Source: Octadecabacter arcticus 238 | GTDB lineage: Bacteria > Pseudomonadota > Alphaproteobacteria > Rhodobacterales > Rhodobacteraceae | Length of the DNA stretch: 64,000 bases | Assembly (NCBI RefSeq): GCF_000155735.2 | Contig: NC_020908.1 | Span: forward strand, 1,741,001-1,805,000 | Direction of reading: 5' to 3' | Shown here: positions 8,640-24,358 of the stretch, piece after piece | Layout of the letters: each line of letters starts with the position of its first letter | Numbering within the stretch: the stretch's first letter is position 1 | Made by a program: the position numbers and the translations under genes | Notes under the pieces: generated by a model | What the model saw: the letters and a program-made list of their open reading frames with translations, nothing else | What the model was told of the DNA's origin: nothing | Databases searched by the model: none

Positions 8640-8682
8640 CACTGCCCGGCAGGGTATTTCCGAAGGAAATGTCCCGAGAGGG
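8640..8682 (-). repeat. Palindromic mini-element, copy in IS481 remnant (43 bp)
   Basis: Minus strand: CCCTCTCGGGA, then the hairpin ATTTCCTTCGGAAAT, then CCCTGCCGGGCAGTG. Ends match the other five copies while the hairpin is different. It sits exactly at the internal deletion point of the IS481 transposase and shifts the frame, giving an early stop. Confidence 0.75.
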
Positions 8683-9365
8683 TGCGGCAGATATTTAACG
8701 TCGATATGCAGGTAACCCGGCTCATAGGCCTTGAAGGCGCTGTGCTTTGGCTTTGCCGCTTTGACCTTCAGGTCGCGCAGATTCCCCACCTCATGACGGC
8801 GTAGGCATCGATCCAAGCCCGAGCGTGAAACGTTCGGATTCAAGACCTCCCGGACCACTGCAAGTAAGTCATCAAGTGACACCAAAAGCGTCTTACGCAA
8901 CGCCACCGCAACACTCTCCTGGGCGGGGTTCAGCGTCGTTTGTAAGCGATGTGGCGTATGGCTGCGGTCTTCGACGCTGTCGCGGCGACGCCACTTCAAA
9001 ACAGTCTGCTCAGAAATGCCATAGCGTTCACTCAGCATCCAGGCCGGATCTTCGCAGGCTTGAATGGCCGCTCTAATCTTCGGTGTTGTCGTCGCTTGGC
9101 TCTGCAGTCGAACGAGCATCACGTTTCGCCTTCCGAATGTCCTCTAAAACCGACCTTGCCATGAAAAAGGCCGAACGCCGAGGGTCAATGTGATCATCCG
9201 GGATGGAACAACTAGGCTGTAGGTTGTGTAATGTGGGTTATTGCCTTTGGCTTGCTTTTTAATAACAGAAACGTGCCGTTTTTGGCAGGGAAGCTGTGTC
9301 AGGAGTTTTATCTTTGGCGTGGTCTGTAGCTAATGGCGGGTTCGTCGCATAGCGTTAGATATACT

Positions 9366-9523
9366 CCGGTCAGGTCGCGTAATAACAACAAGAACCCAAA
9401 AAATCAGCCACGAAAAATTCCTGTCTGTCTTACGTAACGGGGTGCGCATTTCCCCTGTGAGGTAAAGGCCCGGGAAGGACCCAAACACTTCAAAATTACA
9501 CGTTAAATTATGCCACCAAGGGC
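9366..9523 (-). repeat. Dispersed repeat R1, copy 1
   Basis: On the minus strand this matches 42721-42886 over about 150 bp and 28906-29015 over about 90 bp. The shared core includes GAAGTGTTTGGGTCCTT and CTCACAGGGGAAATGCGCAC. It is non-coding. The rest of the 9123-9742 spacer holds no gene that I can support. Confidence 0.75.
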
Positions 9524-9743
9524 CGGAAGCCGCCCTTCGCTGCGGGTGCGAGCCAAGAATGCTTCATTCGTCGGAGCAGACATTCAAATCGGCGCTGATC
9601 CGGATTTGTCTCTGCAGTACGGAAGGCAGCTGAGGCGTGCCTTGCCGACATTTGCACTGCTTCAGTGCCGTTTTTGCAAAGAGTTTGCCCATCCGGCGAT
9701 AGTTGCGGATGCGATGTCGAAAAGCCATCCATGGCGAACTGAA

Positions 9744-9770
9744 TTTGTGTTTGTGTTTGTGTTTGTGTTT
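9744..9770 (+). repeat. Hexanucleotide tandem repeat (TTTGTG, 4.5 units)
   Basis: Four and a half perfect TTTGTG units lie 125 bp upstream of the DUF3422 gene. Such a tract could change length by slippage; whether it affects the gene is unknown. Confidence 0.85.
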
Positions 9771-9789
9771 GGAATGGTTAGAGGGCAAC

Positions 9790-9805
9790 GTATACAATTG
9801 CATAC
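9790..9805. promoter_or_regulatory. Possible operator, palindrome GTATACAATTGCATAC
   Basis: GTAT and ATAC arms flank an AATT centre 90 bp upstream of the DUF3422 start. The shape resembles operators of FCD-type GntR regulators, but no regulator gene is adjacent. Weak call. Confidence 0.3.
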
Positions 9806-9894
9806 ATCCAATCCTTTGAAAAATAATGCTTTTTGTGGATAATGTGGGATAACTGATTACATAACTACTAATGACTCTAACCAAAGGCTTAGTT

Positions 9895-11175
9895 ATGCCC
9901 TTTTTCGGCGATCACCCCCTGCGTTACGCTTTAGCGAACGAATTGCATGCAAGGCCGTTTCCTTTGGTCAACACGCCAAGTCAGGCGGCCTACATTGCGA
10001 TGAAGCACGCAGCGGGTGATGCCCCGCGCGCCCGAACCGCAGAGAGGGCACACCTGATCGATTTACTCGATCGCTTTGACGTGTCGCATCCAAAGCCCAA
10101 TGCCACACATTTTTCGGGGAGCATTGGCCGCTATACGCTGAAGTGGGAAAGCCATACCGAGTTTGTGACCTATACGATCTTTGGGGACGGGACGGACGAT
10201 CACCCATTTTCGGCTGAAGCGTTTGCCGTATTCCCTGAAGATTGGTTGGCTTTGGCCCCCGGAGAATGTGTGACCTCTGCGTTGATCCGTGTAGAGCCTG
10301 GACCCGATGACGCCAGTATCACCAAAAAGGCCGCAAAGTGGTTCGTGCCCGAAAGTCTTGCGATTAGCCGCGTTCTTGATGATGCATTGGTCATAGCGGC
10401 GGACTTTCGGATCGACAGTGCTGGGCATATGCGGCTTGCGGTTTTTCCCCGACCCGAGGTTGGATCGCAGCGGATAGGTCGTGTTGTGCAACGTCTTTGT
10501 GAAATCGAGACATATAAATCGATGGCGATGCTTGGGCTAACCGAGGCCCGCGGGCTGAGCAGTCAGATGACACTTGCTGAATCCAAACTCAGCAACATTT
10601 TGGCGGACATGGCGACAGCAGATTCGGATCCCGCAAATGTCCTTACACAGCTTCTTGCGGTGTCTGGTCAGGTCGAAAATATGGGCGCACAATCGGCATA
10701 CCGGTTTGCCGCGACAGGCGCATATGAGCAGATTGTGAACCAACGGATTGACGTTTTGCGAGAAGACCGTTTTGAGGGGCGTCAAACCTTTGGCGAGTTT
10801 ATGATGCGGCGGTTTGATCCGGCAATGCGAACGGTGAATGCGACTGAACGTAGGCTTCAGGAGATGTCAGCTCGCGCCTTGAGAGCGGGAGAATTGCTAC
10901 GAACCCAAGTAGATGTCGAACGGTCAGCTCAAAACCAAGCTTTGTTAACCAGCATGGATAAACGGGCAGATTTGCAGTTGCGATTGCAAAAGACGGTAGA
11001 AGGATTGTCGGTCGTGGCCGTCAGTTATTACGCGGTAAATATCTCGCTGTATGTTCTAGGGCCGCTTGAAAAAGCTTACGGTATCTCCAAAATATTTCTC
11101 GCCGCTGGGGTCACGCCTGTCGTGTTGATTTTCGTTTGGCTGTTACTACATCGCGTCCATAAGCAATCGGACTAA
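9895..11175 (+). CDS. DUF3422 family membrane-anchored protein
   Basis: The 426-residue product from ATG 9895 (MPFFGDHPLRYALANELHAR) matches the DUF3422 family, common in Rhodobacterales. I prefer this start over the in-frame ATG at 9871 because AAAGG lies just upstream of it. The N-terminal motif HPLRYALANELHARPFP is the family hallmark. The middle is alpha-helical and long-stalked, and two hydrophobic segments near the C-terminus (VVAVSYYAVNISLYVLGPL and IFLAAGVTPVVLIFVWLLL) should span the inner membrane. The biochemical function of the family is not known. It is a single gene with no co-directional neighbour; the next feature downstream is mobile DNA. Confidence 0.85.
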   Translation: MPFFGDHPLRYALANELHARPFPLVNTPSQAAYIAMKHAAGDAPRARTAERAHLIDLLDRFDVSHPKPNATHFSGSIGRYTLKWESHTEFVTYTIFGDGTDDHPFSAEAFAVFPEDWLALAPGECVTSALIRVEPGPDDASITKKAAKWFVPESLAISRVLDDALVIAADFRIDSAGHMRLAVFPRPEVGSQRIGRVVQRLCEIETYKSMAMLGLTEARGLSSQMTLAESKLSNILADMATADSDPANVLTQLLAVSGQVENMGAQSAYRFAATGAYEQIVNQRIDVLREDRFEGRQTFGEFMMRRFDPAMRTVNATERRLQEMSARALRAGELLRTQVDVERSAQNQALLTSMDKRADLQLRLQKTVEGLSVVAVSYYAVNISLYVLGPLEKAYGISKIFLAAGVTPVVLIFVWLLLHRVHKQSD

Positions 11176-11355
11176 TGCCAATATTTGCATTCCTCAATTA
11201 CGATATTTTTGCATTTTAAAGTGACCATTGGCTGAAACACAGCAAACGGCTGAACAATCCGCATATCGACGTTTTAGCCGACAAAGTGCTGCACTGAATG
11301 GCCGCAATGACGGGCCGCGCTGCAGCAACTTAAAGAGGCGGTGAAATACAGCAAT

Positions 11356-11371
11356 GGTGTAGGTTTCTCGG
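11356..11371 (-). repeat. Solo terminal motif of an IS91-like element
   Basis: GGTGTAGGTTTCTCGG is identical to the terminal 16 bp of the two IS91-like elements at 38413-41062 (as its complement) and 60795-63444. No transposase is attached in this orientation, so it appears to be a leftover end. It lies in the 11176-11537 spacer, which otherwise holds only repeat-like DNA. Confidence 0.55.
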
Positions 11372-11537
11372 TCGCTGCACCATGCACATTTTGACATGAA
11401 GGGCGGAAGGACGAGGCCGCTTGCGCGGCAATGGCGCTTTTTGCGGGTGTTCTGGGCGGATTCTAGTGCCGCGCATTTTGTGATCTGGCTGATTTGTTTG
11501 ACGATTGGGTTTCCCAATCTTTGAACAGGAGGCTTTC

Positions 11538-11835
11538 ATGAAAGAGGATAAGACAACGCCGCTGCGTGAGCGGATGATCGAAGATATGCGTATCCGTGGA
11601 CTGGGTGCCAAGACACAGCAAGCTCATATCAGGGCGGTCAGATACTTTGCTGAGTTTGTTGGTCGGTCGCCCGATGCTGCAACGCCGGATGAGCTGCGAG
11701 CGTATCAGCTTCACATGACCAATACTGGGGTCTCAATCGGTGTGTTCAACGCCAGGATTGTATCTTTGCGGTTCTTTTTTGGTGTGACATGTGCGCGTGA
11801 AGAGATGAAGCGGTACATGCAGTTCCGGCGCAAAG
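11538..11835 (+). pseudogene. Tyrosine recombinase, N-terminal fragment (IS91-associated type)
   Basis: From ATG 11538, preceded by an AGGAGG ribosome site, about 99 residues match the N-terminal SAM-like domain of the phage-integrase-type recombinase that precedes IS91-family transposases (LRERMIEDMRIRGLGAKTQQAHIRAVRYFAEFVGRSPD). It is a relative of the complete recombinase at 38554-39468. At about residue 98 (MQFRRKG) the sequence switches abruptly to an IS3 transposase fragment, so the catalytic domain is missing. Confidence 0.75.
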
Positions 11836-11850
11836 GGTATGAAGCATTCT

Positions 11851-12175
11851 CGTGGTGCGCCGTATCACCCGCAAACCCAAGGCAAGATCCCTCTCATGGC
11901 TTGCAAGCAAACCACTACTGGGCAGTGGAGCGATGGCATCAGACTTTGAAGAACCGCATCTTTCTGGAAAACTACTTTCTGCCAGGGATCTCGAAGCGCA
12001 GATCGAAGCCTTCGTCGATCACTATAACCACCTGCGCTTCCACGAGAGCCTGAACAACGTCACACCATCTGACGTCTACTTCGACCGTGACAAAGCCACT
12101 CCACAACAAAGAGAAAGGATCAAATGAAAGACACTCGAAGCGCGGCGCTTGCATCACAGTCAACGCGCGGCATAA
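11851..12175 (+). pseudogene. IS3-family OrfB, C-terminal fragment with mini-element and stop
   Basis: Reading across frames gives RGAPYHPQTQGKI, then a 38/39-bp palindromic mini-element, then ERWHQTLKNRIFLENYFLPG, a one-base deletion, and DLEAQIEAFVDHYNHLRFHESL. This is the C-terminal part of an IS3-family OrfB, including the catalytic Glu region (IERWHQTLK). A TGA at 12125-12127 replaces the CGA expected in ERIKR, after which KTLEARRLHHSQRAA continues to the TAA at 12173-12175. The same IS3 type is seen as a fuller remnant at 22010-24440. Confidence 0.78.
11889..11927 (+). repeat. Palindromic mini-element in IS3 remnant (38-39 bp)
   Basis: CCCTCTCA, then the imperfect hairpin TGGCTTGCAAGCAAACCA, then CTACTGGGCAGTG, followed by GA. 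It interrupts the codons between QGKI and ERW of the IS3 transposase, sense relative to that gene. Confidence 0.75.
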
Positions 12176-13045
12176 TGCAACTAACCAGATGAGCCAGACA
12201 CTCTCATAATCTAAGCCGCCTTTGGACCCAAAAACTCTGCCGACGTACACTTCCATGTCGTCTTCACCATGCCATCGAAGATTGCCCGGATCGCATATTG
12301 GAATAAGCGGTCGTTCTATGGGCTATTGTTCAAAGCGTCCGCAGAGGCGGTGATGACAATCGCCGCAGACCCCAAGCGCATGGGCGCGAAGGTCGGCATA
12401 ACCAGCGTGCTCCACACGTGGGGTTCAGCGCTTACGCATCATCCTCATATCCACATGATTTTGCCGGGTGGCGGCCTGTCAGCCGACGGCACAAAGTGGG
12501 TTGCCTGCAAGCCGGGGTTCTTCGTGCATTTGCGGGTGCTGTCGCGGCTGTTCATTCGTCTCTTCATCGAAGGCTTGCTCGCTTTGCACCGGGCAGCAGA
12601 GCTCTCCTTCTTCGGCGACCTGACTGGTTTGGCCGGTGTTGATGACTTCACAACGTGGCTCGCCCCGTTCCACAAGATCGAATGGGTGGTGTACGCCAAG
12701 CCGCCCTTCGGAGGGTCTGAAGCGGTTCTGTCCTACCTCAGTCGGTACACCCATCGGGTCGCGATCTCGAATGCACGCTTGGTCAGCGCGGATGCAAAGA
12801 CCGTCGCCTTCCGTTGGAAGGATTACCGTATCAAACGGGGTGACCGGCAGAAGGTGATGCGGCTGGCTACACCAGAGTTCATTCGCCGGTTTTTGATGCA
12901 CGTCCTTCCCGATCGGTTCCACCGCATCCGTCATTACGGCCTGTTGGCTAGCTCAACCCGGAAAGCCAATATCACCAAGGTTCGTGCCTTGCTCTGCATC
13001 CAGACCGGAACGTGTCAACGACTTTGAGACAGTGGCTTTTGGACT

Positions 13046-14059
13046 TTAGGCTTGGGTTTCTTCGGTTGGTTTTGGTGGGTTGATCCAGACGGCGGTCGGG
13101 ATTTGAGGCGGTTTTGGTGGTTTGTGTACGAAGCGTTCGGGCGTGGCGAGGAATGCCGCGTCTAGTGTTGCTTGTCGCGCGGTGTAGATTTCTTGGGCCT
13201 GCCCAAAATGGATTTGGTCGGGCGTCATCAGACCAATCCCGGCGTGATGATGGTCTTGGTTATACCATGCAAAGAACCTGCGGCAGAATGCGCGAGCCTG
13301 CTCGATGGTTTCAAAGTTCTTGGGGAACTCTGGCTGATATTTCAGTGTTTTGAAGTGGGCTTCGGAGAACGGGTTGTCGTTTGAGGTGTGGGGCCGACTG
13401 TGGGACTTGAGCACACCAAGATCAACCAGCATCAGGGCTGTCGTCTTTGCCTTCATGGGCCCACCGCGATCTGCATGCAATGTCAGCTGATCGCGTGGAA
13501 CCTCGTGTTTTTCCATCGCGTCGATGAACAGCTCTTTGAACTGGCTGGCGCTCTCCGCGTGCTCGACGCGCCAGCCAACAACGCGGCGGCTGAAGATGTC
13601 GAGGATGACATAGAGATAGAAGTAGGACCATTTCACCGGGCCCCTCAGCTTGGTGATGTCCCAAGACCAGACCTGATTGGGGGCTTCAGCTAGAAGTTCA
13701 GGCTTTTGATAGACGGGATGTGTGCGCTGTCGGCGGCGTTCGCCAACTTCGCCCTGCGCGGCCAATATCCGATACATCGTGCGGATTGAACACAGATAGG
13801 TGCCTTCATCCAGCAAGGTGGCAAAGACCTCTGTGGGCGTCTGATCCGCAAAGCGGGGTTCGCGCAGGTGGTGCAATACCTGGTCTCTTTCCCTTTCCGG
13901 CAGAGCCCGCGAAGACGCTGCGCGCGGTGGGCGTGTGCGTGGTGGTGCCGTCAGCGCCGCACGCTGTCGAAGAACGCTCGCGCGCGATAATGATAGCGCG
14001 GCGCAGACAGCCGAGGTCAAGCCGCTGCCGGTGGGCAATGCAATCGCGACGGCCATCAT
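13046..14059 (-). CDS. IS3-family transposase OrfB (copy 1)
   Basis: The 337-residue OrfB carries the integrase-type DDE core: [12 protein letters not shown] (first Asp), [11 protein letters not shown] (second Asp) and [17 protein letters not shown] (Glu). Its ATG overlaps the stop of OrfA (ATGA). A run of eight A residues in orfA, followed by an open -1 frame that runs into orfB, suggests that the active OrfAB fusion is made by programmed -1 frameshifting, as is usual in IS3 elements. Confidence 0.92.
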
Positions 14060-14538
14060 GATTTGCCGCTGCGCTCTTGCGTCTGCTCCATCTCGTCCAG
14101 AAGTCCCGCCACTTTTTTTTGGATGGCAATGATGGCTTCCGCCTGATCCAGACGGCGCCGCAAGGCTGTCACCTCACGGTTGGCCTTAGCCAGCTCAGCT
14201 TGCAATGGATTGGCAGGTGCCTTTTGTGGGCCACGGCGCATTGGCTGCAATGCACCCAATGTGCCGGCCGCCCGCGCACGGCGCCAATCGGTCAGTGCAG
14301 AGGAATAAAGCCCCTCCCGCCGTAGAATGGCGGAAACCCCGCCAGTGTCTGCCACTTGGTCCGTCTCATCCAGAATGCGCAGTTTGTATTTGGCTGTGAA
14401 GTTGCGTCGCTTCGGGATGCTCGTCAGTTCCGCTGTGGGAGCCAACGGCGCATTAACAACGCGGGGAGGCGACGTCGGGGCCAAAACGGCTCCAGATCCA
14501 GCATCTGGCGAAAGTGGTGATTGTGAAGGCATAACCAT
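14056..14538 (-). CDS. IS3-family OrfA helix-turn-helix protein (copy 1)
   Basis: The 160-residue protein has a Pro/Ala-rich N-terminus, then a helix-turn-helix ([29 protein letters not shown]) and a C-terminal leucine-zipper-like coiled coil ([23 protein letters not shown]). It binds the IS ends in related elements. The A8 slippery run lies at codons IQKKV. Confidence 0.9.
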
Positions 14539-15117
14539 GGGTTCGTTCTCCTACGCCCTCAAGTGTAAACTTTAGCCAGTCAATTGTCTCACGCTTATTG
14601 GCACGGAGGGGACGGCTGAACATACCGCTGCGCCATGTCGGAACCCGAGACCGCTCAGCTCACCCTGCGCGAGCCATGCCCGTGCTGCGGTGGCCCCATG
14701 CGCATCATTGAGATCTTTCGGCGCGGGCAGATACCGATGTCGCGCGCGCCACCAAGGGAGCAGGCGGCATGACACGATACTTGACCATTCAATACAACGA
14801 GCGCTGGTTGCCACTGGTAGACTGGACCAGACCGCCTGCGCCCATCGTCCCAAATGACAGCTGCAAATGTGCCACACCCCCACAATCGATGAAATATCTA
14901 TTGCCAATGCCGCGAAGAATGATGGCGATGCGCGCGCGCAAGGGGGTCAGCAGTGCGCCCGTGGCACCATTGCAATCAACCGCAATTACTCTTTCCCCAT
15001 AGGCAGCACCCAGCCACCGCAGCTTCCTCTTTCCGAGGTTTGTCAACGCGGGCCGCACTCAGCGCCCGAAGGCAAAATTGCACTCCGACCGCATCGAAAA
15101 CCTTCAGGAAAGCAGAC

Positions 15118-15228: not shown

Positions 15229-15343
15229 CGGCTATCGCACCGTACGCTGCTTTAGCGTGTCCTAAATCTAAACAGAACAACAACACAACTGAGCACTTTG
15301 CGTCCTCGCTTCCCTGAATAGCTCTCGAAAAGTCGCTTAGCTC

Positions 15344-16855
15344 CTAGTCGCCGTCTGCGACGCCTTCAGAGCGAAGTCGCGCGTACATGGCACGCATACT
15401 GGGCAGCAAAATAAGGATCACCGCGATGATCAGCAAGCCCAGCGTCATCGGGCGTTCCCAGATGAAGGATATCCCACCGTACAGCTGCACGGCCCGCGCA
15501 AAATTATCTTCCATCATCCCGCCTAGAATAAAGCCGATCAGCAGCGGTGGCAGAGGGTAATTTGCGAATCTCAGCGCGATCCCACAGACACCGAAGCCCA
15601 CCAACAAAAGCAGTTCTGTCGCGTTGTTCTGCCCGATATAGGCCCCCATTAGAGTAAAAAACATAATGAACGGAATCAGGTAGTTGCGCGGAATTGCGAG
15701 GACTTTAGCAATGTAGGGGATGAGCGGCAAATTCAGGATCAACAACACAAGGTTGCCGATGAACATCGACATAATGACCGCCCAGAAAATCTGTGGATCG
15801 TCAATCATCAGGCGTGGGCCAGGGGTGACGTTTAGCGCAATGAGTGCGCCCAGAAGGATCGCAGTGGTGCCCGACCCCGGAATACCTAGAGTTAGCAGCG
15901 GCACGAACGATCCAGTGCAGGCCGCGTTATTGGCGGTTTCAGGCGCGGCGAGGCCTTTAATTGAGCCTTTGCCGAATTCTGCCTGTTCTTCCTTGGTCGC
16001 AAGGTTGCGTTCCACCGCGTAGCCAAGAAAGGAAGCAATCGTTGCCCCTGCGCCAGGTAGCACACCAATGAAAAAGCCTTGAATGGATTGGCGGCCAATC
16101 ACAGGCGCAATTGCTCGCGCTTCGGCGCGGGTGATGCGCAGATCTTTGATCTCTCCGCCGTCGTCACCAATATTTTTTGGTTTAAGGACGAGGAAGATCG
16201 CCTCGGGTAGCGCAAACATCGCCATGGCGAGCGTGACGAACCCAAAACCGGATTGAAGCTCCATAAAGCCGCCCGTAAAGCGCGGCATGTTGAACAGTGA
16301 ACCCAGACCAACAGTCGCCATGATCAGACCCAGTACGGTCATCAACAGCGCCTTGGCCACCTGTCCGTTTCCCGCAAACGCCGCGATTGCAGACAAGCCG
16401 ACAATCATCAACCCGAAGTATTCGGCGGAATGAAACAAAAGCGCGACCGAAGACAACATCGGCGCGAAGATCATGAGCAAAATTGCGCCAATCGTACCGC
16501 CAGCAAAACTGGAGATGGCGGCGATGGTCAGCGCCTTGCCAGCCTTACCCTGCCTTGCCATCGGATAACCGTCGAATGCCGAGGCGACCGTGCCCGCAAC
16601 GCCGGGCGCGTTGAGCAGAATAGATGAGGTAGAACCGCCAAAGATCGCGCCGTAATAGACGCCCGCCAACAAAATTAGCGCGGCAGACGGATCGCCAATC
16701 GAAATTGCGACAGGGATCATGATAGCGATGATCGACATCGGGCCAAGGCCGGGCAGCATACCGATAAACGTACCGATCAGGCAGCCCCCAATGACCATAA
16801 GTAGATTTTGCAGGGACATGGCCGTTTGCAGGCCGATAAGAATTCCTTCAAGCAT
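15344..16855 (-). CDS. tctA: Tripartite tricarboxylate transporter, large membrane subunit TctA
   Basis: The 503-residue protein from ATG 16855 (MLEGILIGLQTAMSLQNLLM) is a polytopic membrane protein of the TctA family, with the conserved GxLPGLGPM motif (GMLPGLGPMSIIAIMIP), GVYYGAIFGGSTSSILLNAPG near residues 60-80 and LGIPGSGTTAILLGAL in the second half. The upstream in-frame extension inside tctB is not used. With TctB and the periplasmic TctC it forms a secondary transporter for citrate or other tricarboxylates, driven by an ion gradient. The start lies four bases after the tctB stop, so the genes are coupled. The set is divergent from its likely regulators tctD/tctE. Confidence 0.93.
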   Translation of the reverse strand: MLEGILIGLQTAMSLQNLLMVIGGCLIGTFIGMLPGLGPMSIIAIMIPVAISIGDPSAALILLAGVYYGAIFGGSTSSILLNAPGVAGTVASAFDGYPMARQGKAGKALTIAAISSFAGGTIGAILLMIFAPMLSSVALLFHSAEYFGLMIVGLSAIAAFAGNGQVAKALLMTVLGLIMATVGLGSLFNMPRFTGGFMELQSGFGFVTLAMAMFALPEAIFLVLKPKNIGDDGGEIKDLRITRAEARAIAPVIGRQSIQGFFIGVLPGAGATIASFLGYAVERNLATKEEQAEFGKGSIKGLAAPETANNAACTGSFVPLLTLGIPGSGTTAILLGALIALNVTPGPRLMIDDPQIFWAVIMSMFIGNLVLLILNLPLIPYIAKVLAIPRNYLIPFIMFFTLMGAYIGQNNATELLLLVGFGVCGIALRFANYPLPPLLIGFILGGMMEDNFARAVQLYGGISFIWERPMTLGLLIIAVILILLPSMRAMYARLRSEGVADGD

Positions 16856-16859
16856 GTGA

Positions 16860-17342
16860 TCAGACTCCCATAAAGTACGGTAGGGGGCGCAGGAAAATCC
16901 CCAGGACTTCTTGCACGAGGTACCAGACAACGACGGCTGTAGTGAGCGATATGGGCACCATGATGTGCCATTTACGTTCACCCAAAATGAATGATCCTAG
17001 GACCAGAAACGTGGTCGTTGACCCGAGAAACCCGACGGTGCGCAGGCACAGCGCATAGGCGACCATGAGCGCTAGCATCAGGATTGCCTGGCCAAGTTTG
17101 TAGTCAGTCAGACGGCGGTAGTCGATCTCGCCTTCAGTGTCGTCAGCTTTTTCAAATCCGAGCAGAATTGCTAGGGACAGACCAATACCAAAAATTGACA
17201 GAATTTTCGGAAAAGAACTGGGCCAGATGGGTTTGCGTTGCATGAACGGTGCGAGAGTGCCGTCCATAGTGAACCACGCTGTGTAGCCATAAAATAAGCA
17301 GATGCTCAGCAAAATAAGTGCGATCCAACGATCCAAAGCCAT
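16860..17342 (-). CDS. tctB: Tripartite tricarboxylate transporter, small membrane subunit TctB
   Basis: The 160 residues contain four predicted membrane helices: residues 6-24 (WIALILLSICLFYGYTAWF), about 46-62, two close helices around 88-120, and WHIMVPISLTTAVVVWYLVQ. This is the normal topology and length for TctB. Between tctC (72 bp upstream) and tctA (4 bp downstream), it completes the membrane part of the transporter. Confidence 0.9.
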   Translation of the reverse strand: MALDRWIALILLSICLFYGYTAWFTMDGTLAPFMQRKPIWPSSFPKILSIFGIGLSLAILLGFEKADDTEGEIDYRRLTDYKLGQAILMLALMVAYALCLRTVGFLGSTTTFLVLGSFILGERKWHIMVPISLTTAVVVWYLVQEVLGIFLRPLPYFMGV

Positions 17343-17413: not shown

Positions 17414-18400
17414 TTAAAGGAAGCCCAGTTTGGTCATCAGATCGCCAATAACCTTTTCCTGATTTTCAAGGAAGTCGCTGAAATCGTCGCCAGGATTGTG
17501 GATGTTGACCCAGCCGTTACGGGCCCGAACAGTTTCCCATTCTTCGGTGTCATACATCGCAGCCAACGCCGCCTGATAAACTGCAAGGTCTTCCGCTGGA
17601 AGGCCCGGTGCCGCGAAGAAGCCGCGCCAGTTAACGAAGGTGGTGTCGATACCTTGTTCCATCATCGTCATGGAGTCCGGTGACGCGGGAACGCGTTCAG
17701 CAGACGTGACGCCGATAATTTTGACTTCGCCAGCTTCTGCAAGATCAATTGCTTCGGACAGACCTGTGGACAACGCCTTGATCTCACCTGACAACAGGGC
17801 AGCCATCGCGGTTCCGCCAGCGTCATATGGAATGTAGTTCACATCCAGTGGATCACGGCCCGCAGCTTCCATTACCATGGCCGCAACGAGGTGATCGAGA
17901 CCGCCGGGAACAGATCCGCCTCCAACAGGCGTGCCAGAAGCGTCGGCGTCATAGGCGGCCAGAAAGCCTTCCATGTCGTTAATCGGGCTGTCTTTGCCAA
18001 CAACGATTGCCGCGTAATCACCGATGGTGCCTGCAACAAGCGTGAGGTCGCGGAAGCTTTGCGGGATTTCACCAGTTAGTGCGCGGATCACAATGGGGGT
18101 CGAATTGACCATCAGCGTCCCGTAGTTGCTTTCGGCGTTTTCAATCAGATAAGCGATGGCTGTACCGCCGCCGCCGCCGGACATGTTCTCAAAGGATGCA
18201 GATCCGATCAGGCCAGATTCGGTGAGCGCCTCGCCAGTTCCACGCGCGGTGCCATCCCAACCGCCACCGGCACCGCCGGGAATTAGAAAGTGGATGCTAT
18301 CCAGCATTTGGTGGCCATCTGCGAAAGCTGGCGTGCCAAGACCCAAAGTTGCGACAGCAGTCGCCATCAGGGCGCGACGGCCCATTTTCATCGTTGTCAT
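17414..18400 (-). CDS. tctC: Periplasmic tricarboxylate-binding protein TctC
   Basis: The start is the ATG at 18400, with GGAGAA seven bases upstream; the open frame further 5' lacks a signal peptide. The 328-residue precursor begins MTTMKMGRRALMATAVATLG and is probably cleaved after PAFA. The mature protein has the Bug/TctC fold signatures: IHFLIPGGAGGGWDGTAR, NMSGGGGGTAIAYLIE, GGGSVPGGLDHLVAAM and YDAGGTAMAALLSGEI. It captures the substrate and delivers it to TctAB. It is the first gene of the operon, divergent from tctD across a 107-bp spacer. Confidence 0.92.
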   Translation of the reverse strand: MTTMKMGRRALMATAVATLGLGTPAFADGHQMLDSIHFLIPGGAGGGWDGTARGTGEALTESGLIGSASFENMSGGGGGTAIAYLIENAESNYGTLMVNSTPIVIRALTGEIPQSFRDLTLVAGTIGDYAAIVVGKDSPINDMEGFLAAYDADASGTPVGGGSVPGGLDHLVAAMVMEAAGRDPLDVNYIPYDAGGTAMAALLSGEIKALSTGLSEAIDLAEAGEVKIIGVTSAERVPASPDSMTMMEQGIDTTFVNWRGFFAAPGLPAEDLAVYQAALAAMYDTEEWETVRARNGWVNIHNPGDDFSDFLENQEKVIGDLMTKLGFL

Positions 18401-18464
18401 TGTATTCTCCCATTTGGTAGCCGTTCTCCTGACGACACCGTGAATGTAGACAAACACGGCAACC

Positions 18465-18480
18465 TGACACAAACCTGTCA
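18465..18480. promoter_or_regulatory. Inverted repeat TGACA-N6-TGTCA in the tctC/tctD divergent spacer
   Basis: TGACACAAACCTGTCA lies 28 bp upstream of tctD and 65 bp upstream of tctC, at a place where one regulator could control both directions. It is a candidate binding site for the TctD response regulator. Assignment is by position and symmetry only. Confidence 0.4.
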
Positions 18481-18507
18481 TCCGCTTAAATAAGAGGCGT
18501 CGCGCAC

Positions 18508-19173
18508 ATGAAATACCTGCTTGTAGAAGACAATCATGAACTCGCGAAAGCGGTCTGTTCGCGAATTGGCTTGGACGGCCATACTGTTGACCACGCTGCA
18601 AAAATCGAAGACGCCATCGCGTTTGTGCAAGCTGGGGAATACGACCTTATCCTGCTCGATATTATGTTACCCGACGGGGACGGTCGCAGCTTTCTCAAAC
18701 AACATCGCGCGGGCAAGAACGACACCCCTGTCATCATTTTGACGGCTAGAAGTGAGGTCTCTGATAGAATCAGCTTGTTGGACTTGGGCGCGGACGACTA
18801 TGTCACCAAGCCTTTCGATCACGCCGAATTGCAGGCCCGATGCCGCGCTGTCTTACGCCGTAAAGCAGGCACATCGCAGACCACGATCAAAGTCGGTGAC
18901 GTCGAGTTTGATCCCGTCGGTGGCTATTTAACAGTCAAGGAAAACGTCATCAATTTGCGCAACCGCGAACTGCGCTTGCTCGAGATTTTGATGAACGCGA
19001 AGGGCCAGGTTTTTCCTAAACAAAAATTGGTCGACCGCTTGTTCTCGTATGATGATGACGTGTCCGAAAATGCCGTTGAGGTTTATGTCGGGCGTTTGCG
19101 CCGTCATCTTGAAGGTTCGTCTGTGCAAATTACAACACTGCGCGGCCTTGGCTACAGGCTCGACCATGACTGA
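18508..19173 (+). CDS. tctD: OmpR-family response regulator TctD
   Basis: The 221-residue protein has a receiver domain with the phospho-acceptor Asp51 in LILLDIMLPDGDG, the conserved Thr in VIILTAR and Lys in YVTKPFD, followed by an OmpR-type winged helix (RNRELRLLEILM, ENAVEVYVGRLRRHL, ITTLRGLGYRL). TctD activates tctCBA in related systems. The start has AGGCG-like complementarity upstream. Its last eight bases overlap the kinase start, so the pair is coupled. Confidence 0.92.
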   Translation: MKYLLVEDNHELAKAVCSRIGLDGHTVDHAAKIEDAIAFVQAGEYDLILLDIMLPDGDGRSFLKQHRAGKNDTPVIILTARSEVSDRISLLDLGADDYVTKPFDHAELQARCRAVLRRKAGTSQTTIKVGDVEFDPVGGYLTVKENVINLRNRELRLLEILMNAKGQVFPKQKLVDRLFSYDDDVSENAVEVYVGRLRRHLEGSSVQITTLRGLGYRLDHD

Positions 19174-20533
19174 AGATGTAATTGTCTTTGGGTCGCTGCG
19201 AAACCGGTTGGTGGTGATCCTAACCGGTGGCGCCGCGCTTTTGGCGATTATCCTGGTCTTGTTCGTGCGCGGCTATGCGACGCAGATCGCACAACAAGGA
19301 CAAGACAATATCCTAAGTGCTTCGGTTTCCTCGATTTTGGGGACGGCTGCACTGCGTGACGGCAATGTAGAGTTGGACTTCCCATACGCGTCTTTGTCGA
19401 TGCTGAACACGCCCGCTGATGACCGTGTATTTTATGCGATCTATGCGGACGGCGAGTTGTTGTCGGGCTATGAAAATTTGGACGTGCCGCAACTGCAGGC
19501 AGGCGATGAGGGCACATTTGCGTCATTAACCTACGACGGCGCTCAGATCCGCGTGGCGACTGCGACCCGAACATTGATTGGCGCGGACATGCCACGACAG
19601 GTTTCGGTCTCTGTGGCGCAAACCCAAGACGCTTTGTCAGATACGCTTAACCGGATTTCAAGCAATGTTGCGCTGTTCGGTACCGGTTTCTTCGCATTGG
19701 CAACGGCGCTGTCGTTCTGGGCCACCTCGACAACCATCGGGCAACTTCACAGGCTCACAACGGCTGTGACGCGCCGCGGTCCACAAGACCTGAGCCCTTT
19801 TTCAAAACCTGTGCCGTCCGAAATGGCTCCGCTGGTCGGATCTCTGAACACTCTGATGTTGCGCTTGGATCAATCCTTTAAACAGTCCGAGGAATTCATC
19901 GCCGAGGCCGCGCACCGTGTTCGAACGCCACTCGCGACTGTACGATCTTATGCTGAGGCCACACTGCAACGTGTTCAGAACCTCGAAAACCGCAATGCCT
20001 TGCGCGCAATGGTGCGCGCTATTGACGAAAGCTCGCGGGCGGCAGGACAACTGTTGGATCATGCGATGGTCACGTTCCGGGCGGAAAACCTGAGCCGTGA
20101 AAACGTCGACCTGGTGGAATTGCTGGGTGATCTCGTGCGGCGTATGACGCCTATCGCCGAAATGCGCGATGTGACCCTGAAACTAGACGCACGTGAACCC
20201 GCACTGATGTCGGGTGACCCGATCTTGTTGCAAAACGCGTTTCGCAACCTCGTCGATAACGCGCTGAAATATGCGCCATCTGATAGCACCATAACCGTGC
20301 AGGTGCACACCACGCCAACGCTGTCTGTTAATGTCAAAGATCAAGGCGTCGGTTTTCAAGTGGATGAAATTCACAAACTTGCCGGACGGTTCGTGCGCGG
20401 AAGCGATACAAGCGACCAAATTGGGTCCGGCCTTGGACTGACAATCGCGCAAGACGTGGCCTTGGCACACGGCGGTAAAATGATCCTGTCTAACAGACGG
20501 AAGGGCGGCGCATGCGTTACTTTGCAGTTTTAA
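19166..20533 (+). CDS. tctE: Sensor histidine kinase TctE
   Basis: The start is ATG 19166, which overlaps tctD. The 455 residues begin with a membrane helix (LVVILTGGAALLAIILVLFV), then a periplasmic sensor loop of about 140 residues, a second helix (ALFGTGFFALATALSFWA), a HAMP-like linker, the H-box FIAEAAHRVRTPLATVRSY with the phospho-accepting His, the N-box NLVDNALKYAP and the G-boxes DQGVGF and GSGLGLTIAQ. It matches TctE-type kinases. Its 3' end overlaps the next gene by 22 bases, which suggests that the binding protein downstream is part of the signalling unit. Confidence 0.9.
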   Translation: MTEDVIVFGSLRNRLVVILTGGAALLAIILVLFVRGYATQIAQQGQDNILSASVSSILGTAALRDGNVELDFPYASLSMLNTPADDRVFYAIYADGELLSGYENLDVPQLQAGDEGTFASLTYDGAQIRVATATRTLIGADMPRQVSVSVAQTQDALSDTLNRISSNVALFGTGFFALATALSFWATSTTIGQLHRLTTAVTRRGPQDLSPFSKPVPSEMAPLVGSLNTLMLRLDQSFKQSEEFIAEAAHRVRTPLATVRSYAEATLQRVQNLENRNALRAMVRAIDESSRAAGQLLDHAMVTFRAENLSRENVDLVELLGDLVRRMTPIAEMRDVTLKLDAREPALMSGDPILLQNAFRNLVDNALKYAPSDSTITVQVHTTPTLSVNVKDQGVGFQVDEIHKLAGRFVRGSDTSDQIGSGLGLTIAQDVALAHGGKMILSNRRKGGACVTLQF

Positions 20534-21522
20534 TTCTTCTTCTTTTCCCCCTAGTGAGCCATGCGCAGGACTGGGAAGACCGTCAGGTGTTTGGCTCGCA
20601 AAACCCGACAAGCACCCTGCGGATATTGTCGAGCACGGACACGTCTTTCTTTGCACCGATTATCGAAAACTTCATCGCACAGCGACCAAATATCGAGGTG
20701 CAATATCTTGTGGCTGGTACCACAAATTTAGACGAAATTTTCCGACAAAACCCCGACCAATTCGACGTCGTCATATCCAGCGCAATGGATCTGCAATTGA
20801 AGCTGGCTAATGATGGGCTCGCCGCGCGACTGGACGGTATTTCTCACCCTGAATGGGCGCAATGGCGGGGCAGTCTTTTCGCGTTCACTACAGAACCCGC
20901 AGCAATTGTGATCAACACCGAAGCCTTCGCCGAACTTCCGATTCCGGCCACGCGCCAAGACTTGATCGAAGTTTTACGCGCAAACTCTGACACCTTCGTG
21001 GGAAAAGTAGGGACCTATGATGTTCGCCAATCGGGGTTGGGTTATTTGTTCGCCACCCAAGATGCGCGCGCATCCGAAACCTTTTGGCGATTAATGGAGG
21101 TAATCGGGAGCTTAGATGCGCAGCTATATTGCTGTTCGGCGGACATGATCGACGATCTAATGACGGGGCGCATTTTGGTGGCCTATAATGTGCTGGGAAG
21201 CTACGCGCTGGCGCGGTCCGAAACCAAAGATATGCTCACCGTGATTTTGCCGTCCGAATTTCCAACAACGATGATGCGATCAGCGCTCGTTTCCAAGGCC
21301 GCATCGCAGCCCGCGTTGGCCGAGGCTTTCGTGAACCACTTGATCCGACTGCAATCTGATGGCAGGCCACAGGATTTCCCATTGCCGTCATTGGGCGCGT
21401 TTCAAGACACGACAGGTCGCACGTCAATCAGTCTTGAGCCCGCTTTAATGACCTATCTCGATACGCTTAAGCGGCAAACATTCATCCGTGAATGGGAAAG
21501 CGCAATTATCCAACAACGATAA
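20512..21522 (+). CDS. Periplasmic solute-binding protein coupled to TctDE (PgtC-like)
   Basis: The 336-residue precursor starts with a signal peptide (MRYFAVLILLLFPLVSHA, cut before QDW). The mature part follows extracellular solute-binding proteins of the iron/phosphoglycerate regulatory type (LRILSSTDTSFFAPIIENFI, GTTNLDEIF, FDVVISSAMDLQLKL). Its start overlaps tctE by 22 bases. No transporter membrane genes accompany it, so it is more likely a periplasmic sensor partner than a transport component; the PgtC regulatory protein of phosphoglycerate uptake is a precedent. Whether it binds citrate or another ligand cannot be seen. Confidence 0.75.
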   Translation: MRYFAVLILLLFPLVSHAQDWEDRQVFGSQNPTSTLRILSSTDTSFFAPIIENFIAQRPNIEVQYLVAGTTNLDEIFRQNPDQFDVVISSAMDLQLKLANDGLAARLDGISHPEWAQWRGSLFAFTTEPAAIVINTEAFAELPIPATRQDLIEVLRANSDTFVGKVGTYDVRQSGLGYLFATQDARASETFWRLMEVIGSLDAQLYCCSADMIDDLMTGRILVAYNVLGSYALARSETKDMLTVILPSEFPTTMMRSALVSKAASQPALAEAFVNHLIRLQSDGRPQDFPLPSLGAFQDTTGRTSISLEPALMTYLDTLKRQTFIREWESAIIQQR

Positions 21523-21818
21523 GTCGGCGCCATCTCAGGGCCGTTTGTCGGTCTCACAGCTTATTGCCGTGGCAACTTGGGTGCACTATCACATCTTATC
21601 AATCAAATTTCCCACAAGATAAGTGCAATCAACGTACGTGCTACAAACGGCTGTTTCGTCCCGCAGACCCACGTTTGAGCCAACAAACTGCTGGGCTCTG
21701 CACGAATGGCTGGTCTGGTGAAGCAGCGCTGGACGAACAGGCCAACGGCCGCAATGGGCCGCGATCTCAACGGGTCGACGCAACACTTTAATCTTTAGGA
21801 AGAGATGGAGTGTTTCAA

Positions 21819-21978
21819 ATGAAGTACCGTCGTAGGATTTATTATTCAGCTCAGCAGCGGGCTGAGATCTGGGATCGTTGGCAACGTGGCGAGTCGATGA
21901 GGTCTATTGTGCGGGTGTTTGATCGCCAATCATCCTCTGTCTTTTCAGTGATCTCACCAACTGGCGGGATACGTCCGC
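21819..21978 (+). pseudogene. IS30-family transposase, N-terminal fragment
   Basis: About 53 residues from ATG 21819 (MKYRRRIYYSAQQRAEIWDR, WQRGESMRSIVRVFDRQSSS, then GGIRP) match the N-terminal helix-turn-helix of IS30 transposases. The frame ends shortly after at the junction with the neighbouring IS3 remnant. The 21523-21818 spacer before it has no gene. Confidence 0.72.
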
Positions 21979-22052
21979 TGGATCACAAGCGCGGACACGT
22001 TGCCTTGCAGCCATTTTGCCAAGTCGCCTGAGACATAGCTGGAGCCGTTGTC

Positions 22053-22091
22053 CACTGCCCGGCAGTTGATACGCAGTATCAATGAGAAGGG
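22053..22091 (-). repeat. Palindromic mini-element, 39 bp, in IS3 orfB (DNGSSY region)
   Basis: Minus strand: CCCTTCTCA, hairpin TTGATACTGCGTATCAA, CTGCCGGGCAGTG, then GAC. It adds exactly 13 codons between RLLS and the DNGSSY motif that carries the second catalytic Asp, in frame. Confidence 0.82.
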
Positions 22092-22235
22092 ACTAAGCAG
22101 GCGAGGCTTGTGGACAACATGAACCTGGCCACATCCCGACGCGGCTAAGGCCAGATCCAATGTATCAGTGACGTCTTGGGTCCTCATGTTTGTACAGAGA
22201 TTCCATGAGATGATGTAGCGGCTGTAATCGTCCAG

Positions 22236-22274
22236 GCCTCTCGTGGCTTGCGAGCAAACCACTGCCAGCTAATA
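22236..22274 (+). repeat. Palindromic mini-element, 39 bp, antisense in IS3 orfB
   Basis: Plus strand: GCCTCTCG, imperfect hairpin TGGCTTGCGAGCAAACCA, CTGCCAGCTAATA, then GATC. It adds exactly 39 bases between YLSTI and LDDYS of orfB, in opposite orientation to the gene, and introduces a TAG. Its right arm has diverged from the consensus. Confidence 0.72.
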
Positions 22275-22319
22275 GATCGTGCTGAGATAGAACCAGCCCC
22301 AGCCCAGAACCTTGAGGTA

Positions 22320-23512
22320 TACTCCCGCGCCTGAATTGACCTGAGGTTTTCCCCTCAAATCACTTTGTATTCCTTGAGCGATATGACGCGGAAGTTGTCG
22401 GTGACGGTGTCGCGGAACTCTAGCCATTTTTCTCGCAGGGTCTTGCGGAAGAAGTCGAAAATGGCCTCTGTGAATTGGTTGAACGTTGCATAGTGCCGAT
22501 TGTGGGTGACCCATTTGTGCATAACACCCCAAAGACGCTCGATCGGGTTGAGGTGCGGGGCATATGCTGGCAAGAAATGCAACTTCACCCGACGTTCTGG
22601 GCTGTCCAGCCATGGCTGTAGTATCTTGGCATGATGATAGCGGGCATTGTCGACAAAGACGTGGATGGCCGTCTTGGTTTGGTTGTTGCGTTCCAACTTT
22701 TCCAGCATCTGTCGGGTTGTCTGGGCATTGATCTTCTCGCCTTCCACAAAGGTGAACTGGAAAGTCTCAAGGTCAAGCGCGCCCTGAATGTTGAGCCGCT
22801 TGCGCCCTGATGTCGCCTTCAGGGCCGTCTTTTGTCCCTTGGGGAACCAACCATGGGCGGGGCGGCTCTGGTGTTCGGGGTGGACAGCGTCCGAAAAGAC
22901 AACCATCTCATCTGCGGCCAACCCGTTCATCAGGGCCTCATATTTGGCAATAAACGCAGCCTGCTTGGCTTCATCGGCCTGTGCAGGCAGCAATTGTGGT
23001 TTCTTATACGCGAACCCCAGGCGGCGCATCAGCTTGGCGGCTCCCGACGTGCTGTAGTTTTGGTCGCACTCGGCTAGAACATAGGCACAGACCTCATCGG
23101 CATTGCGGGCAGGCTGCGCGGTGAAATGGGCTCTCACCGCCTGCTCTTGCACGACGGACAAATGACCCTGACGCTGGCTGTAGTCCTTCAGACCGAAAAA
23201 CGATAGTCCCGCACCGGCAAAGGCAAATCGCCACTCCGTCAAAACTGTCGGGCCAATATCCAAAATCCGGCAAACCGTTCCGGCGTCTTCTCCTGCGTCC
23301 AAAAGAAGAAACGCGCGCGCCCGTTTCCAAACAAGGGCGTCAACTTTGCGGCGGCGGCAAAGCGCTTCAAGTGCTATGCGCTGCTCGTCGGATAAGGAGA
23401 CTGTTTTGTATTGCTTGATCATAAACTCAAAATACAGACTGAACTGCCTTTGGCCATGCGACGAAGTGAATCGCAGGCCCAAAATCGTCAGGTCAATTCA
23501 GGCGCAGGAGTA
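22320..23512 (-). mobile_element. IS630-family element, copy 3 (1,193 bp)
   Basis: Same ends as copies 1 and 2, flanked by TA at 22318-22319 and 23513-23514. It interrupts the DFTYLK codons of the IS3 remnant. Confidence 0.93.
22355..23422 (-). CDS. IS630-family transposase (copy 3)
   Basis: A 355-residue DDE transposase from the ATG at 23422 (MIKQYKTVS; Ile instead of the Ser of the other copies). The catalytic Asp, Asp and Glu motifs are intact. Near the C-terminus it has LREKWLEFRD where copies 1 and 2 have [10 protein letters not shown]. Intact frame. Confidence 0.92.
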   Translation of the reverse strand: MIKQYKTVSLSDEQRIALEALCRRRKVDALVWKRARAFLLLDAGEDAGTVCRILDIGPTVLTEWRFAFAGAGLSFFGLKDYSQRQGHLSVVQEQAVRAHFTAQPARNADEVCAYVLAECDQNYSTSGAAKLMRRLGFAYKKPQLLPAQADEAKQAAFIAKYEALMNGLAADEMVVFSDAVHPEHQSRPAHGWFPKGQKTALKATSGRKRLNIQGALDLETFQFTFVEGEKINAQTTRQMLEKLERNNQTKTAIHVFVDNARYHHAKILQPWLDSPERRVKLHFLPAYAPHLNPIERLWGVMHKWVTHNRHYATFNQFTEAIFDFFRKTLREKWLEFRDTVTDNFRVISLKEYKVI

Positions 23513-23993
23513 TAGGTAAAGTCAGTTTGCCAGAGTTGGTTGATGGCCGTGGTTTTGTCTTTGAACTCGCTCACGGCCTTGATAGGCTCAAATGATTTTC
23601 AATCAATCGCGCGAGATGAAGGCTCGGCTTGTGATTAGGTCGTGTGCCTAGAGAACGCGATAGACCGAAGCCTCTGATACAAAGTAACTTTCCTTGTCCG
23701 TGAAGGTTACGGCCAACTCCCGTGGTGACAGCTCCGTTTCTTCCCACGCCAAGTCCACGACCCTACGCCGCACCTCATCAGAAATGCGGTTCCAGACATG
23801 CTTTGGCTTGGGTGATTAATCCTGCAACCCAGCCTCACCACGCTGAAGATACCGGTCGTACCAGCGATAGAATGTGGTGCGAGGAATGCCCAACTTGGCC
23901 AACGTCAGACGTGCTGATAGATGCGTTCCTTCGACCAGCCGGATGATCTCCAGCTTCTCAGATGCTGGGTATCTCATTCTTGGTCGCCCCATC

Positions 23994-24035
23994 CATTGCC
24001 CGGCGGGTGATTGCAAAGCAATCTGCCGAGAGGGG
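23994..24035 (-). repeat. Palindromic mini-element, 42 bp, at IS3 orfA end
   Basis: Minus strand: CCCCTCTCGGCA, hairpin GATTGCTTTGCAATC, ACCCGCCGGGCAATG, then GATGG. It is inserted after the LRLLKKS codons of orfA, sense relative to the gene, at a length divisible by three. Confidence 0.8.
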
Positions 24036-24319
24036 CCTGTTATGCTTTTTTTAAGCAAGCGCAGTTCGAGCGTTTGCTCCGCTACAACTTCCTTCAGATC
24101 ACGCGCCTCGCGGCGGAGGTCTTTGACTTCGTCAGTTGTGGCAGCCCACGCTGTATCGCCAGCAAGCCGCTTCTTGCCAGCTTCCATGAAGTCCTTAGAC
24201 CATTTGTAATAAATGCCCTGTGAGATGCCTTCACGACGGCACAGCTCAGCGATGCTATCTTCCCCACGCAGGCCGTCAAAGACGATCCGGATCTTCTCTT
24301 CGGACGAATACTGTTTGCG

Positions 24320-24358
24320 CCCTTCTCATCGATATTTCGTAGCGACTGCAAGGCAGCG
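24320..24358 (+). repeat. Palindromic mini-element, 39 bp, antisense in IS3 orfA
   Basis: Plus strand: CCCTTCTCA, imperfect hairpin TCGATATTTCGTAGCGA, CTGCAAGGCAGCG, then GT. Removing exactly 39 bases joins KDIKLAY to RKQYSSEEK in frame. In the antisense direction it adds an in-frame TGA to orfA. Confidence 0.75.

Follow-up and report, generated by a model that had tools for sequence, protein, structure and literature searches.

Transposase genes of insertion sequences (IS) in Rhodobacteraceae, which are mostly marine bacteria, contain short inserts of 37–44 bp with the layout CCCTCTC-R-(hairpin)-Y-TGCCGGGCARTG. The balance of the evidence favours reading them as a non-autonomous mobile micro-element that is, as tested, nearly confined to this bacterial family and found almost only in IS transposase genes. 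Six copies lie in the window, i.e., the 64,000-nucleotide stretch of the Octadecabacter arcticus 238 genome analysed here. An earlier note on this DNA had described them as insertions; their places were confirmed, and the lengths given were right to within one base. Uninterrupted homologues were found for all six (identities 68–97%), and these homologues lack the segments at the corresponding places, showing that all six are insertions (Table 1). For elements 3 to 6 the boundaries are uncertain by one base, since the fit to the homologues is off by about that much where the flanks join.

Table 1 Elements in the window and the reading frames that hold them
Feature	Position	Strand	Length	Core	Site, host and basis	Uninterrupted homologues
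Element 1	8640..8682	-	43 bp	GGGACATTTCCTTCGGAAATACCC	CCGCA|AATGGC, IS481-type transposase gene	L123 (97% identity)
Element 2	11890..11927	+	38 bp	ATGGCTTGCAAGCAAACCAC	AAGATC|GARCG, IS3 orfB; Pfam rve_3 downstream	L124, L216, L213, L231
Element 3	22053..22091	-	39 bp (38 if first C native)	ATTGATACTGCGTATCAAC	AGY|GAYAAC, before DNGS codons, IS3 orfB; Pfam rve in host frame	L124, L111, L216, L174
Element 4	22236..22274	+	39 bp	GTGGCTTGCGAGCAAACCAC	antisense to same IS3 orfB as element 3; right end decayed, CTGCCAGCTAATA	L216, L294, L209, L213
Element 5	23994..24034	-	41 bp	GGCAGATTGCTTTGCAATCACC	GG(C/G)|GATGG, IS3 orfA; same site also filled in L010, L209, L216	L213, L294
Element 6	24321..24358	+	38 bp (39 with preceding C)	ATCGATATTTCGTAGCGAC	antisense, IS3 orfA region	L301, L122, L111, L010
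Disrupted IS481-type transposase reading frame with element 1	8628..9122	-			reading frame	
IS3 orfB reading frame with elements 3 and 4	21954..22262	-			Pfam rve, E 7.8e-8	
IS3 orfA region with elements 5 and 6	23816..24366	-			Pfam	

The IS481 assignment of the frame holding element 1 is supported by the IS481 label on the plasmid match H6 and by protein motifs that we take to be of this type; a Pfam search of the fragment gave no match. Within the IS3 orfA region, the reading frame 23816–24187 matched HTH_28 and HTH_23 above the cut-off and HTH_Tnp_1 below it, and a Pfam search of 24094–24366 gave no match. Rfam covariance models applied to the window at the gathering threshold found only Cis8_sRNA, away from the elements.

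The evidence that these copies belong to a family comes from pattern searches and pair counts. The left motif alone was not above chance in the window (5 found, 6.6 expected). Chance falls far short of explaining the two ends in combination: TCTCRN{12,30}GCCGGGCARTG had 46 matches in the O. arcticus genome, representing 42 distinct places, and the reversed control had none. A relaxed pattern was present in 199 of 394 Rhodobacteraceae genomes, with any control match in 38 of the 394, and a GTDB scan yielded at least 120 stretches. The strict pattern occurred in none of 380 sampled alphaproteobacterial genomes outside Rhodobacteraceae and in four of the five inside (O. arcticus included); a few named records outside the family do hold the element. 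The proposal of a mobile family with fixed ends rather than chance resemblance thus held up, with many more copies, whose cores covary, in this genome and its relatives. Plasmid annotation beneath element matches was mostly 'none', which is unusable as a gene call since pseudogenes are omitted from the table and 'none' is expected; four plasmid regions were examined. From 250 elements, 20 were set aside by a fold filter (dG above −2.5); the counts of site reuse, strand, target, guide and covariation below come from the remaining 230 or subsets of them.

The core keeps a hairpin of 7–10 bp despite sequence change. Among 51 distinct 22-nt cores taken with no fold filter, 95.0% of cells were paired (1000 shuffles: mean 73.2%, maximum 77.8%). 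Equally unfiltered sets gave 88.1% for 18-nt cores (n = 30; shuffled mean 61.0%) and 93.8% for 24-nt cores (n = 21; shuffled mean 69.9%). The covariation score was 0.53, compared with 0.14 after shuffling and at most 0.11 after sliding (52 rows, fold-filtered), and changes on both sides were seen in eight of nine pairs. These data bear out the suggestion of the earlier note that structure, not sequence, is kept. Single elements fold modestly: the six window copies did not do so reliably better than their own shuffles (z from −2.6 to +1.25). It is the family-wide covariation, not the folding of individual copies, that supports structure.

Joined flanks matched empty homologues without target duplication, to within about one base; two empty IS5-type copies (L085 and L086) matched the joined flank with 100% identity across 150 bp, and one IS, compared between its filled and its empty copies, was identical beside the site. 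The preferred target is C|GAYGR, with GAYGR following the TGCCGGGCARTG end (218 flanks, about 3.9 bits over positions −1 to +5), and just 28 of 141 sites matched it at all positions. Insertion recurred at the same position of homologous IS in different genomes, in some cases with the same core and in others with a different one. Exact loss may fit these site reuse data as well as repeated gain does; same-site pairs and clusters are non-independent, some being copies within one genome. Filled IS5-type copies occupy distinct genomic places, and therefore element-bearing IS multiply. The core was also considered as an RNA guide, and this was rejected: the mean longest match to its own target was 4.57 compared with 4.52 in permuted sets, with 90 of 500 permutations as high.

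To characterize the habitat, Pfam domains were searched beside 75 of 94 eligible GTDB loci (74 sense and 69 antisense stretches) and at 67 control sites in the same loci (131 stretches). Among the families considered (the best 25 of 29, 29 and 95 matched, with counts not deduplicated by element), those beside the 75 elements were nearly all transposase or HTH domains, the only others being ZinT, a coupling-protein gene and a weak terminase match; control sites gave host-gene domains. Some of the broken transposase genes seen in Rhodobacteraceae genomes probably owe their disruption to the element.

This habitat could arise without any preference for IS, if insertion took place anywhere near GAYGR but persistence and multiplication were limited to copies inside IS, these being redundant and themselves copied. 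Such survivorship with hitch-hiking is possible, and we hold it to be clearly less probable than the favoured reading. It agrees with the dispersed IS5-type copies and with the expected purging of insertions in essential genes, and intergenic copies may be under-seen, because the tally covers elements with at least one domain match beside them and leaves those without any match uncounted. However, control sites in the same loci gave host genes, and target motifs were not denser near elements (1.93 compared with 2.36 per kb per strand), by which motif density was also rejected as the cause of the IS preference. Moreover, IS make up a small part of most Roseobacter genomes, since the sequenced ones average about 21 transposable-element genes per megabase according to PMC3646047, which puts Octadecabacter 4–8 times higher, yet the domains matched beside the element are, among the families considered, nearly all those of IS.

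A host system that tames IS, by which Rhodobacteraceae would block transposase genes with folded DNA, in many cases at a catalytic aspartate codon, appears improbable to us. The limit to one clade in an even genome sample, although IS travel widely, speaks for it, as do the many IS families hit and several sites directly before an Asp codon (IS5 I|DATYLK, IS3 S|DNGS, IS66 A|DDTP and IS4/5 A|DGAYD), which we presume to belong to DDE motifs. But Asp codons are expected at these sites from the GAY target alone, one IS30 site in the O. arcticus genome was empty in 36 copies and filled in five, filled IS multiply, no linked gene is known, and the records outside the clade mentioned above hold the element too.

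Reused sites could be called confidently for gene strand in 28 cases from 35 clusters: 16 were sense and 12 antisense. This split makes splicing or ribosome bypass unlikely, and a reading-frame or sense logic was ruled out by it. Phases were mixed. Lengths were compared in 141 of 148 elements (dG −3.5 or below; three of 151 were short of flank): 11 were divisible by three and 130 were not. Reverse transcriptase as the mobiliser was rejected, since RVT_1 was equally present in element-rich and pattern-free genomes (8 of 20 each). All of this stands against an RNA-level element, i.e., a micro-intron, a translational bypass element or a retro-inserted RNA that leaves the transposase functional, which we regard as very improbable. 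In its favour are the hairpin with fixed flanks, the mostly sense copies, judged by eye, in the O. arcticus genome, and the similarity of cores at the same site, which had at most two differences in 18 of 52 different-genome pairs with 18–45% flank divergence and in 24 of 63 pairs across all divergences (background: 4.0%).

Candidate enzymes were compared between 20 genomes with at least five relaxed matches (O. arcticus aside) and 20 pattern-free genomes; one of the rich genomes, G044, had the hairpin in just one of its five listed matches. Y1 was found in 5 of the 20 rich genomes and 1 of the 20 pattern-free ones, and Y2 in 8 and 1. Since both are commoner in rich genomes, and a hairpin element that moves as a single strand and duplicates no target is of the expected type, two sources were considered: a palindrome of REP or IS200/IS605 type with Y1 (RAYT) as its mobiliser, and a mini-IS91 driven by a resident Y2. 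This reading is improbable: Y1 is missing from 15 and Y2 from 12 of the 20 rich genomes, the conserved ends hold no GTAG or CGTC tag, and in the resident IS200 and IS91 copies that were compared the ends are unlike those of the element. This comparison, by which Y1/IS200 was rejected as the mobiliser and IS91 as the source, covered 10 IS200-type loci and 16 IS91 regions of the O. arcticus genome; there, Y1 had 48 matches, and nine of the 10 loci compared align to one IS200 type with the ends TTTACTTTCC...CGTTCAGT. A Y1 gene about 200 bp from the element at L061 is a truncated copy of this resident type. Single-strand transposition might leave a replication-strand bias; none was detected (GC skew 0.0026, standard error 0.0042, 92 elements), and 17 of 41 elements were co-oriented if replication is assumed to begin at the contig start. 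The half-matches examined in the O. arcticus genome were decayed copies, variant copies or chance matches, with no larger autonomous version among them. No mobilising gene for the element was found, and Y1, Y2 and RVT_1 are each missing from most rich genomes.

For the non-autonomous micro-element that we favour, an enzyme supplied in trans would recognise the folded strand by its hairpin shape and the two fixed blocks, cut the element out and paste it beside a GAYGR pentamer. Movement would then occur at the DNA level and involve neither a transcript nor a reading frame. A similar layout is found at the ori end of elements with HUH endonucleases (IS91, Helitrons and relaxase nick regions), and from the order of hairpin, fixed 12-mer, cut and target pentamer an HUH endonuclease would be the leading guess for the enzyme class, a tentative one that we think more apt to fail than to hold. 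Going further, the elements might form an IS-specialised class of micro-transposons: folded 40-nt DNA whose shape an undescribed Rhodobacteraceae enzyme recognises, and which enters the transposase genes of many IS families and leaves them again precisely, as a reversible plug. This is a speculative and rather unlikely reading; if true, it would mean reversible control of jumping genes across a bacterial family. The family lends itself to the search for a new DNA enzyme that recognises shape, and it raises the question of whether IS are in turn parasitised or controlled by elements such as these.

Known small palindromic repeats are mostly intergenic and linked either to a Y1 enzyme or to a parent transposon, whereas this family is, as tested, linked to neither, is conserved by shape and lives in IS genes. 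The earlier note had not recognised it as a known family; likewise, we found no description of such a family in the titles, abstract openings and passages covered by a literature search. The recombination of integron attC sites depends on the shape into which a strand folds, and these sites have a variable palindromic middle, as does the element, but the fixed ends of the latter contain no R boxes, judged by the attC consensus, and it carries no cassette gene. Translational bypass elements (mitochondrial byps and that of phage T4 gene 60) are short hairpin inserts in reading frames, whereas the element is antisense at 12 of 28 called sites and has no fixed phase. IS91 and Helitrons, which move by rolling circle with HUH enzymes, make no target duplication and have a hairpin near one end with a fixed target adjoining. 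The element shares the lack of duplication and the preferred target beside the hairpin end; it differs in its size of 37–44 bp, in its ends and in the scarcity of Y2 noted above. MITEs are likewise non-autonomous, geneless and present in high copy number, but they have terminal inverted repeats and duplicate their target, whereas the element makes no duplication and its ends, CCCTCTC and GGGCARTG, are by eye not inverted beyond CCC/GGG. MITEs are also normally intergenic, as stated in PMC10969869. REP sequences, described as palindromic repeats of 20–40 bp in PMC3733652, are similarly short and numerous. They are extragenic, GTAG- or CGTC-tagged and associated with RAYT (Y1), in contrast to the element, whose flanks in the 75 sampled copies match transposase domains, in whose ends, CCCTCTC and TGCCGGGCARTG, neither tag occurs, and whose rich genomes mostly lack Y1. 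The parallel drawn earlier with Rickettsia palindromic elements applies loosely, in that both are palindromic inserts within protein genes. The Rickettsia elements are about 150 bp long, code in frame and lie in unrelated metabolic genes, as described in PMC10969869, whereas the element is 37–44 bp long, mostly out of frame, and inserted in both orientations into transposase genes.

The earlier note had described six short segments in the window as insertions; all were found as described, and after removal of the element the flanks matched uninterrupted homologues lacking the segment in six of six cases. The left motif alone occurred in the window at chance frequency, so the evidence for the elements depends on both ends jointly.

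Elements and neighbouring features of the window (insert lengths were derived from homologues; the slash marks the junction in the empty site; L-numbers are compared loci)
Feature	Position	Strand	Insert (bp)	Empty site or remark
Element 1	8640-8682	-	43	CCGCA/AATGGC in L123 (IS481-type, 97%)
Element 2	11890-11927	+	38	AAGATC/GARCG in L124 and L213 (IS3 orfB)
Element 3	22053-22091	-	39 ± 1	AGY/GAYAAC in L124 and L216
Element 4	22236-22274	+	39	
Element 5	23994-24034	-	41	
Element 6	24321-24358	+	38 ± 1	
375-aa transposase frame	7400-8527	-		adjoins element 1; presumably IS630-like by its motifs
375-aa transposase frame	22355-23482	-		near-identical to the former and presumably likewise IS630-like; between elements 4 and 5
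Rfam Cis8_sRNA match	15693-15820	+		130 bits; antisense to the TctA-like frame
TctA-like reading frame	15344-16981	-		
Presumed two-component pair	18508-20533			beside the Cis8_sRNA match, as are presumed TctB- and TctC-like genes; names based on sequence
Short GTTTGT tandem run	about 9740-9775			

The elements consist, in this order, of CCCTCTC, R, a stem of 7-10 bp with a loop of 3-4 nt, Y and TGCCGGGCARTG. In the variable core of 22 nt, the stem is composed of 3 bp, a one-base bulge (mostly A) and 6 bp. The proposal of fixed ends around a variable but self-complementary core was borne out, since pairing exceeded that of shuffled controls for all three core lengths, each taken without a fold filter: 95.0% of cells were paired in 51 distinct 22-nt cores (shuffled mean 73.2%, maximum 77.8%), 88.1% in 30 distinct 18-nt cores (61.0%, 68.6%) and 93.8% in 21 distinct 24-nt cores (69.9%, 76.2%). 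Among 52 fold-filtered rows, changes on both sides were present in 8 of 9 stem pairs, and sliding the partner reduced pairing from 95% to 33-44%. The folding energies of single copies were not out of the ordinary. Judged by eye, the R of the right end depends on the type of core in many of the elements listed: CAATG predominates with GGCAGATTGC cores and CAGTG with GGGACATTGC cores. The right block is variable in some copies, as in a sub-line (L324, L330, L333 and L321) TGTCGGGCAAGG, TGCCGGGCAAGG or TGCCGGTCAGTG replaces TGCCGGGCARTG. One composite (L329 near 856, G000:C1:2865014), whose right half reads like the left end in reverse (CCCCGAGAGGGCAGTG), is perhaps a nested or palindromised element.

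Further copies are numerous. In the three contigs (5.48 Mb) of the O. arcticus genome, a relaxed pattern (TCTCR, 12-30 nt and the right end) gave 46 matches at 42 distinct places, compared to 0 for the reversed control, and the half-matches read included additional decayed or variant copies. Among 394 Rhodobacteraceae genomes, 199 had a relaxed match (maximum 25 per genome, O. arcticus aside) and 38, counted from the table, matched the reversed control; many of the listed single matches lack a hairpin and are probably due to chance. The strict pattern was present in 4 of 5 Rhodobacteraceae and in 0 of 380 other alphaproteobacterial genomes. At least 120 stretches with the element pattern were detected in GTDB, and 75 of the 80 titled matches listed are, by name, presumably Rhodobacterales; the remaining five are from Vreelandella (L134, L190), Labrenzia (L154) and unplaced Alphaproteobacteria (two). 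Two of 80 records in a plasmid similarity search, both from Shinella, which is outside the Rhodobacteraceae, match a family-type element. Because of these exceptions the clade limit is strong but not absolute; the Shinella, Vreelandella and Labrenzia records are candidates for transfer or contamination. Ten viral contigs also contain the pattern.

The elements sampled reside mainly in insertion sequence (IS) genes. We searched Pfam with the best coding stretch beside each of 75 random GTDB elements. Sense stretches (74) matched 29 families; 24 of the 25 shown were transposases or their usual HTH domains, and the other was ZinT. Antisense stretches (69) also matched 29 families, and 21 of the 25 shown were of this kind; apart from a weak terminase hit, the others were three coupling-protein families, each with a single member. 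From control CGAYGG sites at a distance of over 1.5 kb, 131 stretches gave 95 families, with one transposase among the 25 shown. The Pfam names imply, among others, IS3, IS4/5, IS66, IS110, IS256, the IS21 helper and IS91. Intergenic copies may exist beside this habitat; the counts leave out elements without any hit. The target motif was not denser near elements (1.93 vs 2.36 per kb per strand). Some IS copies bear two elements, and such doubly filled copies recur: L003 and L081 are two such elements, 386 bp apart and oppositely oriented, and in genome G013 four places have a pair spaced by 375 bp.

In the clear cases (IS5-type, IS481-type, IS30, locus L018, elements 1 and 2), the joined flanks showed neither duplication nor loss relative to the empty site. 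At L003, L080, L014 and the second site of L008, the junction was one to few bases off the homologue. Over 218 flanks, the target was C at -1 (75%), followed by G (76%), A (73%), T (62%) or C (25%), G (63%) and G/A (81%); since C/GAYGR was matched exactly at only 28 of 141 sites, this motif counts as a preference.

Of 230 hairpin elements, 112 fell into 43 same-site clusters, some including copies within one genome. Cores differed at two positions or fewer in 24 of 63 same-site pairs from different genomes, compared to 4.0% (976 of 24,226) of pairs from different sites; differences were larger in the remaining 39 same-site pairs, several of which had wholly different cores. L001, L002, L005 and L221 have identical cores despite flank divergence up to 33%, and between L200 and L206, whose flanks diverge by 9%, the cores differ at 8 of 18 positions. 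Thus, association of a core with its site and core change at one site both occur. Of seven near-identical IS5-type copies at different genomic places, five contain the same core and two (L085, L086) are empty and identical to the joined flank over 150 bp; two truncated and two diverged relatives are also filled, and over 846 columns the diverged ones show 98-141 differences from the empty copies. This pattern would follow from a filled ancestor with exact loss of the element in L085 and L086, from repeated entry of nearly the same core into one site, or from gene conversion by an unseen empty copy. The IS30 site shows the opposite picture, with 36 empty matches and five filled copies.

The family is real and large; its insertion, the covariation of its cores and its IS habitat are likewise demonstrated, whereas its mover is putative. 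No name or description of it was found in the literature searched, which covered few subscription papers and no preprints posted solely on bioRxiv. For O. arcticus, PMC3646047 reports 1175 transposable-element genes, a count that includes pseudogenes, along with 411 pseudogenes; the words palindrom-, hairpin and 'small repeat' do not occur in it. The features of MITEs and RPEs used for comparison come from PMC10969869, and those of REPs from PMC3733652.

The elements occur in antisense as well and in mixed phases, and their lengths are mostly not multiples of three, all of which speaks against splicing, bypass or in-frame tolerance; of 35 clusters whose substitutions reveal the frame, 28 were confident, 16 in sense and 12 in antisense. 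A guide role of the core was rejected, as cores matched their own targets no better than permuted ones. No replication-strand bias was visible. Comparing 20 rich genomes (at least five relaxed matches, O. arcticus aside) with 20 without the pattern, Y1 was found in five vs one, Y2 in eight vs one and RVT_1 in eight vs eight, and none of them was general across the rich genomes. IS themselves travel beyond the clade, whereas the element is clade-limited, which suggests that a factor bound to the host or the clade is involved. That the shape is conserved while the sequence is free points to a folded single strand, or a cruciform, as the substrate. In HUH nick sites, a hairpin, a fixed block, the junction and a preferred target follow in this order; the elements resemble them in their order of hairpin, fixed 12-mer, junction and preferred pentamer.
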